Translations under genes and position numbers: made by a program
Shown here: positions 4,428 through 31,570 of the stretch, one piece after another
Position numbering within the stretch: the stretch's first letter is position 1
Layout of the letters: each line of letters begins with the position of its first letter
Notes under the pieces: generated by a model
Told to the model about the DNA's origin: nothing
The model's database searches: none
The model's input: the letters and a program-made list of their open reading frames with translations, nothing else
Source: a virus
Length of the DNA stretch: 31,570 bases
Direction: 5' to 3' (one strand)
IMG/VR virus record: IMGVR_UViG_3300044846_001718
Location: 1-31,570 of that record

Positions 4428-4642
4428 ATGAAGCTAAAGAGAAAGAAAAAGCGAAAGAATTAGTGAATAAATATTATGATTCTTTGCCACAATGGGTAAA
4501 TGGTAACGATGCCAAACAATGCGCTTTAATTGCAGTTCAGGAAATACTATGTTCAAATCCGCACAGCAACCCATTAACAACTGAAGTTTATTCAACCATG
4601 TTATTTTGGAATAAAGTTAAAAATGAAATCGAAAAGTTATGA
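4424..4642 (+). CDS. Small helical phage protein, paralogue 2 of 3
   Basis: The 72-aa product starts with KEKEKAKELVNKYYD and has a central AKQCALIAVQEIL helix. It ends FWNKVKNEIEKL, matching its neighbour at 4173 in order and end motif. It is coupled by ATGA at both ends. Tandem duplication is the simplest origin. Function unknown. Confidence 0.7.
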   Translation: MNEAKEKEKAKELVNKYYDSLPQWVNGNDAKQCALIAVQEILCSNPHSNPLTTEVYSTMLFWNKVKNEIEKL

Positions 4643-4758
4643 GAAAATTTAACAGAAACGAACCGCTTGGTAAAAACTTTGAACGAATGATTTACGGAGT
4701 TGCAATAGTTGTTATTTTTGCAATAGTTGCTAAATGTAGCGGAGTAATGCCGAAATGA
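4639..4758 (+). CDS. Single-span membrane microprotein, 39 aa
   Basis: ATG at 4639 overlaps the preceding stop. The 39-aa product has a basic N-terminus (MRKFNRNEPLGKNFERM) and one hydrophobic span at about residues 18-31 (IYGVAIVVIFAIVA). It ends one base before the next start codon, at 4760. The layout fits a real microgene embedded in the operon. Role unknown; an inner membrane location is likely. Confidence 0.6.
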   Translation: MRKFNRNEPLGKNFERMIYGVAIVVIFAIVAKCSGVMPK

Positions 4759-4759
4759 T

Positions 4760-4981
4760 ATGAACGATAAAAAAGAATTGATTAAAGCTTGGCTTGAGAT
4801 ATTCGGGACTGCATACCTAGATTCTGACAATATCACATGGAAAATTATTGACGGTAAATTAATCGGTAAACGAAGCGTTTTGACTTTTGATTTACACACC
4901 TGTTGGCTTGAAGAAACCGATATTAAAAATGTGAGATCCTGGTGGTGTGGTAAAGATTCTGACTATTCAGAGATATTTTAA
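4760..4981 (+). CDS. Hypothetical protein, 73 aa
   Basis: This 73-aa soluble protein has a tryptophan- and acid-rich C-terminal part (ETDIKNVRSWWCGKDSDYSE). The start is one base after the preceding stop. No motif is recognised. A possible promoter (TAAATTTG) begins 11 bp after its stop codon, so it may end a transcription unit. Confidence 0.6.
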   Translation: MNDKKELIKAWLEIFGTAYLDSDNITWKIIDGKLIGKRSVLTFDLHTCWLEETDIKNVRSWWCGKDSDYSEIF

Positions 4982-5942: not shown

Positions 5943-6447
5943 CACCTACATAAATGAAAATTATACACTACTTCAAAAGGTAGCCAGTGACTTTGTGCGA
6001 CGAAAAAAACGAAACTACGATCCTGAAATAGTTATTTCCGAAGCCTATATTTACATTCTAAAAATCAAAGATAGGATTACTACAGTCGGACAACTGCAAT
6101 CGTATTTTATTAGCAAAATAAATCTAGAAGTAAGCAAACAAAACAGCTCAATTAACTACTTATTCAAAGAGCGTACAAGCGAACTGATAGGTATAGAAAG
6201 ACAGGAAGATAACGATATCCTATTACAGATAGAACACGACATCAAAAGAAACAGCCAAAAGGCACAGATTGAAAGTTACAAATTAAAGATTAACGATCAG
6301 TTTGATAAAATCATTTTTGATGCGTATTTTTACAAAAGGAAAAGAACAGTAAGGGACTTCGCTAGTTACTTTAATCTAAGTAAGCAAACAGCAAACGACC
6401 TAATAAACGAGTTAAAATTTAAAATTAAAAATCATGGCAAAATTTAA
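5923..6447 (+). CDS. Divergent sigma-factor-like transcription regulator
   Basis: The 174-aa product has the plan of a minimal sigma-70/ECF-like protein. An N-terminal helical part (VASDFVRRKKRNYDPEIVI, residues 20-38, then SEAYIYIL) resembles region 2. A C-terminal helix-turn-helix at about 142-168 (TVRDFASYFNLSKQTANDLI) resembles region 4. Start 5923 is chosen over GTG 5902 for its short overlap. Its place directly before the terminase and virion genes suits a late-gene activator. The alternative is a plain HTH DNA-binding protein. Confidence 0.55.
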   Translation: MNKQQIDTYINENYTLLQKVASDFVRRKKRNYDPEIVISEAYIYILKIKDRITTVGQLQSYFISKINLEVSKQNSSINYLFKERTSELIGIERQEDNDILLQIEHDIKRNSQKAQIESYKLKINDQFDKIIFDAYFYKRKRTVRDFASYFNLSKQTANDLINELKFKIKNHGKI

Positions 6448-6724
6448 AACAGAATTTGAAAATTGTACGGTAACAGTTAATTCACCTGCAGTGGGTAAAA
6501 TCACAATTAACACCGCAACGGTAAACCCTAATCACTGGGTAAGCATCAAAGAATTTGCGTTTATGTTTGAGGATGAAACAGCACCCGAACCAATATTTTT
6601 TGAAGTAAACGAAAATTTAATTGCTGACAGTTATTCAGATTTTACATTGAATGAACTTCGTGAACGTTTTCCGGATATTAAAGCGACTTCAAAGAAAGCG
6701 TTTATTGAACAAATCACTGAGTAA
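6434..6724 (+). CDS. SAP/HeH-like small phage protein
   Basis: This 96-aa protein has a beta-rich N-terminal half (KTEFENCTVTV...ITINTATVNP). The C-terminal helix pair TLNELRERFPDIKATSKKAF (about residues 72-91) resembles HeH/SAP or Rho-N helix-extended-helix domains. Proteins of this plan often lie next to terminase or head genes. It overlaps the sigma-like gene by 14 bp and its stop overlaps the terminase start (TAATG). A role in DNA packaging or head-tail joining is a guess. Confidence 0.6.
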   Translation: MAKFKTEFENCTVTVNSPAVGKITINTATVNPNHWVSIKEFAFMFEDETAPEPIFFEVNENLIADSYSDFTLNELRERFPDIKATSKKAFIEQITE

Positions 6725-7110
6725 TGGACGCCGAAGTCTTTGAGAAAATATGTTCAGATTTGGAGAGAACTCACTTAGGGTTGCTCTCCATTTGTCGTAA
6801 TAATGGACAAGCCACAGAGAATGGATTTAGAAATCATTTGAAAAAAAGTGAACTGAACGAGCAGAGATACACGCGTGCGCGCGAGAAACAACTCGATTAC
6901 CTTGAAGATTTACTTCGTGAGGTTTCATTTGATAATGGCAAAGATTCACTTGTAGATGGAAATGTTAATCTAGGCAGTAATTCAATTGCCAGAGATAGGC
7001 TCAAAACCGACACGCTTAAATTCATACTCTCTAAACTTAGACCGCAGAAATACGGCACTAAAATAGAACACACAATCAAATCAGAACCTAGAGTATTTAA
7101 AATCGATTAA
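6724..7110 (+). CDS. terS: Terminase small subunit
   Basis: The 128-aa product matches the Sf6-like small terminase layout. An N-terminal HTH-like region (HLGLLSICRNNGQATENGFR) comes first. YTRAREKQLDYLEDLL follows in the middle (about residues 49-64). The end has DRLKTDTLKFILSKLRPQKYG (about 92-112), the conserved 'asKl.PkkYG' stretch. The subunit recognises phage DNA and loads the large subunit. It is one base upstream of the large terminase gene. Confidence 0.85.
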   Translation: MDAEVFEKICSDLERTHLGLLSICRNNGQATENGFRNHLKKSELNEQRYTRAREKQLDYLEDLLREVSFDNGKDSLVDGNVNLGSNSIARDRLKTDTLKFILSKLRPQKYGTKIEHTIKSEPRVFKID

Positions 7111-28151: not shown

Positions 28152-28445
28152 ATGAGTGCAATAATCCAAATGTCGATTGACGTAACAAAGATTGACAAAT
28201 CAAAACTTAAAGACGGGAAATATTTGAATGTAAGTATTTCAGTAAACAACGAAACGAAATTCGATAATAACGTTTCAATGTGCTACAATCAAAGCAAAGA
28301 GGAGCGTGAATCTGGCGCAAAGAAAACCTACTTTGCTAATGGTAGAGTAATTTGGACGGATGGCGTTATTAAAGTAGCTGAAAAGTCTATTCAGAATGAT
28401 TTGCCAAGTGGTAATGCAGTTGCTGAAACTGATATGCCATTTTAA
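28152..28445 (+). CDS. SSB-like small protein with DMPF tail
   Basis: The 97-aa product has a beta-rich body (YLNVSISVNNETKFDNNVSM, then SKEERESGAKKTYFANGRVI) and an acidic C-terminal end ETDMPF. That tail resembles the D-D-x-P-F tip by which bacterial SSB contacts partner proteins. The body is too diverged for me to confirm an OB fold. Location directly after the exonuclease and before a terminator supports a recombination role. Confidence 0.6.
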   Translation: MSAIIQMSIDVTKIDKSKLKDGKYLNVSISVNNETKFDNNVSMCYNQSKEERESGAKKTYFANGRVIWTDGVIKVAEKSIQNDLPSGNAVAETDMPF

Positions 28446-28465: not shown

Positions 28466-28500
28466 AAAACCGTTAATTTCTAGTAAGTTAACGGTTTTTT
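28466..28500 (+). terminator. Rho-independent terminator after the recombination operon
   Basis: AAAACCGTTAA (28466-28476) and TTAACGGTTTT (28488-28498) form a perfect 11-bp stem with an 11-base loop, followed by further T. It closes the P3 unit before P4. Confidence 0.85.
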
Positions 28501-30072: not shown

Positions 30073-30356
30073 CAAAAACACAAAAAGACGATTTAGCGCA
30101 CATTGTTATGGCATCAATGCAACTTCAAAGCGCACTGCATACGCTTGACAATATCACTGGCGAGGGCAACAAGTTTAAGTTCAAAAAAAAGAAACAATGG
30201 AACGATTTTATAGACTATGTCAGACGTTTTGGAGAACGTGAGGGAATAGAACTTTACGATTTAACAGCGACAATGACAGAGCAAAGTCAAAATTATGTAG
30301 ATTGTGTCAACGAGTTTGACAAAGTTGCTGCAGAAATGAAAATATTTTTGCCTTAG
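30069..30356 (+). CDS. Hypothetical helical protein, 95 aa
   Basis: The 95-aa helical protein has a lysine-rich middle (KFKFKKKKQWNDF) and an acidic end. It is coupled by ATGA to the preceding gene. No recognised motif. It is the last gene before the primase leader. Confidence 0.6.
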   Translation: MTKTQKDDLAHIVMASMQLQSALHTLDNITGEGNKFKFKKKKQWNDFIDYVRRFGEREGIELYDLTATMTEQSQNYVDCVNEFDKVAAEMKIFLP

Positions 30357-30371
30357 TTTAGAAATAATTAT

Positions 30372-30379
30372 TATATTTG
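30372..30379 (+). promoter_or_regulatory. Primase promoter, TATATTTG
   Basis: TATATTTG matches TAnnTTTG, with TTTG at 30347-30350, 21 bp upstream, fitting a conventional -33 box. The predicted start near 30384 gives a leader of about 110 bases. Unlike P1-P4, the TTTATTAAAA box is not present at the nine-base spacing. Confidence 0.65.
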
Positions 30380-30391
30380 TAATTCACATAA

Positions 30392-30474
30392 AGTAACGAC
30401 CAATTACTAAGATTTTTTTTATTGAAACCTTGTTGATAGATGCCGTTTGGTCGTGGCTATATTGGCAAGGTTTC
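30392..30474 (+). ncRNA. Structured leader with possible kissing loops before the primase gene
   Basis: Hairpin 1 is AGTAA/TTACT (30392-30396, 30404-30408) with the 7-base loop CGACCAA, followed by eight T. Hairpin 2 is GAAACCTTG/CAAGGTTTC (30424-30432, 30466-30474). Its loop holds TTGGTCG (30447-30453), fully complementary to loop 1, extending to 8 bp (30396 with 30454). The order gives a kissing-loop or pseudoknot. Such leaders control replication genes in some plasmids by attenuation or translation. An ATG at 30440 is in frame with the primase and would make part of this coding; the family's usual start favours 30494. Confidence 0.45.
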
Positions 30475-30493
30475 TTCATTTTTATACATTTTT

Positions 30494-31570
30494 ATGGTAA
30501 GTATTTTTAAGCATGCAAAAGATTCAAACAGTGAACGAAATTTATCAATCGAAGCATTTTTTGATGGTATTAAAAACGGTCAGTGGCAAGATGAAATCCT
30601 GGATTATAGAACAGGAAAAAGAAAAAAAGAAACATTACATGCCGTAACAGCAAGCGGAGTTTTTAAAGAAAGGAAAGCAAATAATTTGCTTAAACATTCC
30701 GGATTAATTTGTATTGATGTTGATGCAAAGGACCAGATTTGTGAAATTGACATTGAATCACTGAAAAGCGATCAATTTGTGCATTGCATACACCGGTCAG
30801 CTGGAGGGTTTGGGTTTGCCGTTTATGTAAAGATTGATAGTGAGCGACATTTAGACGCGTTTCTAGGCCTTGAAGATTATTTCTTTGTAAATTATTCAAT
30901 CGTTGTAGATAAATCATGCAAAGACGTTTCAAGACTTAGATTTATTTCCTATGATCCTGAATTATTAATTAATGAAAAGTCAAAAGTTTTCAAAAAATAT
31001 CTTAAGAAAAAAGAAGTTGAACGCAAAAATTATAAACCATTTGTTGTAAAGTCAGATTTTGATGACATGGTTAACCAGGCAAGCTCAATGAATCTTTTTG
31101 ATGAATATTCAGATTACATAAAATTAGCCTTTGCTTTAGCTTCTGAATTTGGAGCAAATGGAGAAAATTATTTTCATTCACTTTGTAGAGCTTCGTCAAA
31201 ATACGATGAAGTAAAAGCATCAAAACATTATCAAAAAGCATGTGCAAGAAAAGAAACCGGCGTTTCTATTGCAACAGTTTATTGGAAGTTTAAAGATGCC
31301 GGAATTTCTTTGACATCTGAAAAAACAGAAACAATTAAATCCGTTATTAAACTTTCAGAAAATCCAAAGGAAACTTTAAAAGAATTAGGCATTGAAGACA
31401 ATGATAATATTGTTGAAAATTTAAAACAAGGTACAAAGGAAAAAACAGAGCTAGATGAAATCATTGATTTGATAAAATTGAAAAAAATTAAATTTAATGA
31501 AATAACTAGAAACTTTGAAATGAAAGGCCAGGAAATGACAGATAGAGAAATGGCGCAATTTTATTCATTA
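30494..31570 (+). CDS. Primase-helicase, N-terminal VirE_N/BT4734-like primase part (continues at 1)
   Basis: This is the 5' part of the 693-aa protein completed at 1-1132. Residues about 1-170 match the VirE_N/BT4734-like primase-polymerase domain: HSGLICIDVDAKD (68-80), HCIHRSAGGFGFAVYVKI (98-115) and SRLRFISYDPEL (146-157). Residues about 205-275 form a PriCT-2-like helical domain (IKLAFALASEFGANGENYFH). A charged linker then leads to the VapE-like helicase. ATG 30494 is chosen because the family begins near 'VS.FK..KD'; ATG 30440 would add 18 residues. Fusing primase and helicase gives a self-contained initiator that uses the host polymerase. Confidence 0.88.
   Translation, partial: MVSIFKHAKDSNSERNLSIEAFFDGIKNGQWQDEILDYRTGKRKKETLHAVTASGVFKERKANNLLKHSGLICIDVDAKDQICEIDIESLKSDQFVHCIHRSAGGFGFAVYVKIDSERHLDAFLGLEDYFFVNYSIVVDKSCKDVSRLRFISYDPELLINEKSKVFKKYLKKKEVERKNYKPFVVKSDFDDMVNQASSMNLFDEYSDYIKLAFALASEFGANGENYFHSLCRASSKYDEVKASKHYQKACARKETGVSIATVYWKFKDAGISLTSEKTETIKSVIKLSENPKETLKELGIEDNDNIVENLKQGTKEKTELDEIIDLIKLKKIKFNEITRNFEMKGQEMTDREMAQFYSL
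31444..31570. repeat. Terminal direct repeat, right copy (contig overlap)
   Basis: These bases are identical to 1-127 and lie in the same reading frame of the primase-helicase gene. See the left copy for interpretation. Confidence 0.95.

Follow-up and report, generated by a model that had tools for sequence, protein, structure and literature searches.

The repZ leaders of IncI-alpha and IncB plasmids and the repA leader of IncL/M plasmids contain a 5' hairpin whose loop, with letters that vary between plasmid types, pairs with a downstream element and thereby permits translation of the replication initiator; these leaders are also under the control of the antisense RNAI. Work on these leader pseudoknots is cited in PMC10724649. 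In the timP mRNA, a 7-bp pseudoknot between stem-loops SL1 and SL3 is essential for translation and favours mRNA stability (PMC11228461). Among phages, RNA structures have been described in the leader of T4 gene 32 and at the homing endonuclease genes I-TevI and Aeh1 mobE (PMC3014915), as well as in the early transcripts of HK022, as put RNA (PMC9378689). Translation initiation in Flavobacterium depends on how the mRNA folds locally and on the bases that immediately precede the AUG (PMC6847099). The leader described here joins two hairpins through their loops upstream of a phage primase-helicase gene, and leaders of the same design precede many other phage genes.

The leader locus and its relatives

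The locus was found in an IMG/VR viral record (IMGVR_UViG_3300044846_001718), of which the whole stretch analyzed, hereafter the window, comprises 31,570 nucleotides. All features of the leader lie on the plus strand, between the stop of the upstream gene (30356) and a primase-helicase gene (BT4734-like_N, PF08800; PriCT-2, PF08707) that occupies 30494-31570 and runs off the window end. Primase homologues all start at the ATG equivalent to 30494 (MVSIF, MISIF, or MISLF), so the interval from 30356 to 30494 is non-coding. Translation from 30440, which the initial annotation had named as the reading that would speak against an RNA element, is rejected on the same grounds.

A promoter box of the Bacteroidota -7 type (TAnnTTTG; TATATTTG, 30372-30379), which stands before hairpin 1 in relatives as well, precedes hairpin 1 (30392-30408), near the expected 5' end of the mRNA. 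Hairpin 1, recognized by its letters, by folding, and from relatives, consists of the P1 strands AGTAA (30392-30396) and TTACT (30404-30408) around the loop CGACCAA (30397-30403). Element A (ACGACCAA, 30396-30403), made up of this loop and one adjoining base of the stem, is perfectly complementary to element A' (TTGGTCGT, 30447-30454) in the apical loop of hairpin 2, a match of 7 bp within the loop and of 8 bp with the stem base counted. The spacer between the hairpins (30409-30423) holds a T8 run (30413-30420) that begins four bases 3' of the hairpin 1 stem and occurs in this phage only. In hairpin 2, stem B (GAAACCTTGTT, 30424-30434) pairs with stem B' (GGCAAGGTTTC, 30464-30474), and the upper stem, GCC (30442-30444) with GGC (30455-30457), closes the A' loop. 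Both hairpins are predicted by RNA folding; in hairpin 2, an internal loop separates 15 basal pairs from an upper stem of 4 pairs. An unstructured, A/T-rich stretch of 19 bases (30475-30493) lies between hairpin 2 and the start codon. The hairpin letters, their positions, and the perfect interleaved A-B-A'-B' pairing are all as first annotated. Elsewhere in the window, a strong inverted repeat (AAAACCGTTAATTT and AAGTTAACGGTTTT with a 5-base loop, 28466-28498) follows an ORF ending at 28445 and looks like a terminator.

The primase is encoded in ten viral contigs, nearly all of which show the matching upstream layout in different letters, in support of a conserved loop-loop leader at this gene. 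One contig (L002) is a near-identical copy of the window. The leader of L003 reads GAAG[GGTGAGAA]CTTC with TTCTCACC as the downstream partner, that of L004 GTG[AAGGGACG]CAC with CGTCCCT, and that of L010 GTTC[ATGCAG]GAAC with CTGCAT; these and other P1 stems replace AGTAA/TTACT. L003 and the window share 94% of the N-terminal residues of the primase, and their leaders are not aligned by BLAST. In L006, the leader precedes an HNH gene sited directly upstream of the primase, and in L003 the upstream gene and the primase leader are separated by a short NUMOD4/HNH-like ORF (4445-4654) that is probably a remnant; the primase start region looks like a repeated insertion site for homing endonucleases. 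Other repeats occur near the primase: CTGTAAC is present 8 times in L004 (about 1 expected), mostly just upstream of the leader (4550-4840), and ATCTGTAAC is repeated after the primase in L023-L025. Both are possible iterons of a replication origin; there is no such enrichment in the window.

The leader is not confined to primases. The 62 leaders retained (see below) precede BT4734-type primases, Lin1244_N and DUF6291 proteins, small proteins, and NUMOD4/HNH and GIY-YIG endonucleases, and, by our own reading, an SF3-like protein without a Pfam match and a DEAD-type helicase. Helicase operons are headed by it too, and some genomes carry two leaders. The promoter box lies a median 6 nt 5' of hairpin 1 in these 62 leaders; the box had been among the search terms for most of them, though not for the primase relatives. 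The start codon follows 9-50 nt 3' of hairpin 2 (median 20). The features that define membership, namely the TAnnTTTG box, hairpin 1, the loop-loop helix, hairpin 2, and an ATG 9-50 nt further on, were all found. The notion that the leader belongs to the primase was dropped because leaders also stand before HNH and GIY-YIG genes, and the notion that it moves only with homing endonucleases was dropped because replication genes carry the leader without one. The initially suggested leader of the primase-helicase is upheld, but as a reading it is too narrow, the leader also heading other replication genes, helicase operons, and homing endonucleases.

Several contigs carry more than one leader (L079 at 945 and 3815, L189 at 2664 and 4422, L283 at 772 and 3983, L359 at 1530 and 3483, and L200); the loop code word differs from leader to leader in these contigs, and A2, a third copy of A described below, is present in some and not in others. 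The leaders of L071, L307, L359, L325, and L185 precede short proteins with a common C-terminus like AIKFAKTLRTEINKI. L025 carries a promoter, a leader, and a NUMOD4/HNH gene together as a single insert (about 6340-7050) whose flanks are 91-99% identical to L023 and L024; at the insertion site, L023 has what we read as an acetyltransferase-like ORF, which looks shortened in L024.

Cultured phages of Flavobacterium also carry the leader: mymlan6-1 has two, one before the gp35 endonuclease and the other before the gp38-helicase-primase, sniff9-1 two, morran9-1 one, and FCV-1 two. The scanner described below detected no leader at a score of -29 or lower in phi46:1 or phi12:1. Queried with the window region and with three leaders, the annotated phages gave no nucleotide match. 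As for a host element, a single promoter-spacer-tail pattern occurred in 6 of 396 Bacteroidota genomes, with a leader at none of those loci; the pattern is narrow enough for rare prophage copies to escape it. A range within Bacteroidota is suggested by the promoter type, the cultured phages, and a contig from a Flavobacteriales MAG (L030).

Compensatory change and the search for leaders

Compensatory change conserves the leader structure, whose place between promoter and AUG is fixed. When 12 leaders from one subgroup were aligned with MAFFT by sequence only, five of the eight pairs of the loop-loop helix proved to have changed on both sides and none on one side only. In this alignment, 95.7% of the cells of the helix are paired, and a shift of the partner by one base lowers paired cells from 91.6% to 47-55%. 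In the four cultured Flavobacterium phages, the loop-loop helix is 100% paired, again with 5/8 pairs changed two-sidedly. For instance, a 799-base stretch around the gp38-type leader is 94.6% identical between mymlan6-1 and sniff9-1, whose loops differ by GA/AG in A and by TC/CT in A', by which the pairing is kept. The window's own group, where the alignment is weaker and some rows are misaligned, has 16 two-sided cells compared with 6.9 in shuffles. Stem B/B' also displays compensatory changes, in both the environmental and the cultured alignments, so that paired substitutions, on which the initial annotation had staked its proposal, occur in both helices.

Leaders were scored with a scanner that combines hairpin 1, the loop-loop helix, and hairpin 2 within bounded spacings by stacking energy; its bounds were chosen after the first examples had been seen. 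The window leader scores -38.4 and the next best site in the whole window, on either strand, -31.4. Among 3,000 dinucleotide shuffles of the window leader segment, one reached -30 and none reached -34. Pattern scans of viral contigs followed by the scanner yielded 66 distinct leaders at -31 or lower. As a control, 5,776 promoter-like sites were shuffled twice each, and none of these roughly 11,500 shuffled sites reached that score. A few of the 66 fail inspection, having no gene behind them or an odd spacing, and 62 leaders at -30 or lower with a gene behind were kept.

The pattern scans used the promoter box together with spacer and/or tail letters, and part of the leader set came from a T5 search pattern. 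Box, spacer, and tail are therefore over-represented in the set, while the hairpins and the loop-loop pairing were outside the search terms. Because relatives repeat both hairpins and the loop-loop pairing with different letters, we regard the reality of the leader as settled. The recurrence of one fold in more than 60 phage leaders with unrelated complementary letters points to a family of gene-control RNAs that has not been listed before.

Proposed role and competing explanations

About 15 leaders carry A2, a copy of A between hairpin 2 and the start codon that ends 0-6 nt before the ATG. Since A2 copies A, A' can pair either upstream with A or downstream with A2. Pairing of A' with A2 at -10 kcal/mol or lower was found in 14 leaders, whereas 1,000 permutations of the tails among leaders averaged 0.6 such leaders and never exceeded 3; A-A' is stronger than or equal to A'-A2 in 14 of the 15. 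A, A', and A2 could thus form a translational switch. A2 was looked for in the window leader and not found, and an explicit OFF state is therefore not available to it. Two leaders (L158 and L160) combine the window's A loop with an A2, and the window leader, lacking A2, precedes a different gene.

We judge these leaders to be a new family of phage RNAs acting in cis, which most likely control the translation or stability of replication and endonuclease mRNAs in the manner of the timP or IncI-alpha repZ pseudoknots. In the window, the leader would be a cis-acting 5' RNA of the replication operon whose kissing state is the translation-competent and/or stable form of the mRNA, a reading to which we assign a probability of roughly 0.5. 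An RNA that acts in cis is favoured by the location between promoter and AUG, by the sense orientation, and by the compensatory changes. The mRNA start, placed near hairpin 1 by the promoter box alone, the switch, and the effect on translation or stability are all things that we infer. Element A in the loop of hairpin 1 would kiss A' in the apical loop of hairpin 2. The resulting knot at the 5' end would be compact and end about 20 nt short of the start codon, and this kissing state is most likely the one that is translated and/or stable. In leaders with A2, loss of the A-A' contact would allow A' to capture A2, 0-6 nt from the AUG, and so block initiation, which would make hairpin 1 an activator in cis in these relatives. 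In leaders without A2, including that of the window, the more likely role of the knot is to hold the initiation region open or to shield the 5' end. Three points make control of translation or stability our first choice: A2 could directly block the initiation region, Flavobacterium initiation depends on mRNA structure and on the bases adjoining the AUG (PMC6847099), and the similar two-hairpin knot of timP is essential for translation (PMC11228461).

The main rival to control of translation or stability is attenuation or antitermination, in which hairpin 2 and its T-rich tail would act as an intrinsic terminator, with read-through decided by A-A' or by a contact with RNA polymerase, as for HK022 put. 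The T-rich tail would fit attenuation equally well: in 49 of 62 leaders, a set partly biased by the T5 pattern, the 8 bases that follow the last G/C of B' include at least 5 T. Like put (PMC9378689), the leader is also promoter-proximal in transcripts whose genes are unrelated. However, most A2 leaders have a T run of only 3-4 followed by a CATTTAA tail, and the A-A' and B-B' pairings are not mutually exclusive. A terminator scan made no call at hairpin 2 of the window, its loop limit of 8 making it blind to such hairpins. On balance, we consider attenuation unlikely. An operator at which a phage or host protein represses the operon, as gp32 does at its pseudoknot in T4, appears a little less likely again. 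Its appeal is that the unpaired parts hold a family consensus (the spacer AAGAAATTATTA, a purine-rich strand before A', and the tail CATTTAA) while the stems vary, and that many genes behind leaders encode DNA-acting proteins; yet spacer and tail letters also served as search terms, and the downstream genes (primases, Lin1244_N, DUF6291, HNH, and GIY-YIG) are unrelated, so that no one self-binding protein can explain all leaders.

RNA-based competition or immunity, with the loops of co-infecting phages acting in trans as in P4 immunity or plasmid incompatibility, would account for diversification of the loops, whose letters differ between close relatives and within genomes (L079, L189, L200, and mymlan6-1). 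Against this, neither an antisense promoter signal of the TAnnTTTG type nor a separate small-RNA gene was seen, and the A loop is identical in distinct phages (the window, L158, L160, and L242), which leaves competition or immunity an improbable role. Least probable is an element of the DNA itself, either a replication origin or a protein-binding inverted repeat. The leader adjoins a primase gene and inverted repeats are common at origins, but leaders, those of homing endonucleases included, follow the promoter box and precede the start codon in the sense direction, and the interleaved loop pairing, impossible in duplex cruciforms, is nevertheless kept by compensatory change.

Two mechanisms envisaged in the initial annotation find no support. 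Early termination at hairpin 1 with T8 would require a T run that is found in no relative, the spacers being A-rich, typically AAGAAATTATTA, and 11-27 nt long (median 17); as T8 is not conserved, the terminator is unsupported. Antisense control is equally unsupported, because minus-strand TAnnTTTG boxes, the only promoter type covered, number 0.77/kb in leaders (10 sites), hardly above the 0.60/kb of coding DNA. The analogy with plasmid rep leaders, of which antisense control was a part, accordingly stands for the pseudoknot resemblance only.

A wider proposal, which we hold as tentative and clearly less probable than the main reading, is that of a large phage RNA family in which A, A', and A2 share one private code word and would form an RNA-only on/off switch of translation, each leader having its own code word and several switches working side by side in a genome, with the promoter-leader-gene cassette spreading among Bacteroidota phages along with replication genes and homing endonucleases. 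Should the A/A'/A2 switch prove real, the leaders would constitute a natural library of orthogonal kissing-loop switches for hosts with Shine-Dalgarno-independent ribosomes, and phages may use it to time the expression of replication and homing endonuclease genes. The leader structure is kept despite rapid sequence turnover and is available in cultured Flavobacterium phages (mymlan, sniff, morran, and FCV-1).

Comparison with described leader RNAs

The window and five further loci gave no Rfam 15 match at the gathering threshold, and the leader region and four loci gave none at E ≤ 1; the pistol ribozyme was considered and dropped for want of an Rfam match. A literature search found no described leader of this kind in Bacteroidota phages, whose regulatory RNAs are, to our knowledge, little known. 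Compared by mechanism and not by sequence, the leader resembles those of the IncI-alpha/IncB type in the pairing of a 5' hairpin, through its loop, with an element further downstream, ahead of an initiator gene. The phage leader differs from repZ in showing no antisense signal among TAnnTTTG boxes and in standing before non-initiator genes as well.

The leader shares with timP two hairpins joined by a 7-bp covarying interaction upstream of the initiation site, as well as mutually exclusive conformations (PMC11228461). However, timP is an enterobacterial toxin gene with an antitoxin sRNA, not a phage leader, and is not known to have a start-proximal third copy like A2.

The initial annotation knew of no phage element like this one, but the gene 32 leaders of T4, T2, and RB69 likewise place a pseudoknot before a replication gene (PMC3014915). 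Topology and partner differ: the T4 pseudoknot is H-type, bound by its own gene product, and limited to one gene, with no kissing complex of two hairpins (PMC3014915), and a common self-binding product is unlikely across the leaders described here, given their downstream genes. The hairpins of I-TevI and Aeh1 mobE are alike in placing RNA structure at the initiation region of homing endonucleases, whereas they sequester or reduce initiation, are named without a loop-loop contact, and are not common to replication genes (PMC3014915). Finally, HK022 put RNA is similarly structured, acts in cis in phage early transcripts, and is independent of the gene that follows; put acts on RNA polymerase (PMC9378689), and the loop-loop covariation of the present leader is a separate feature.
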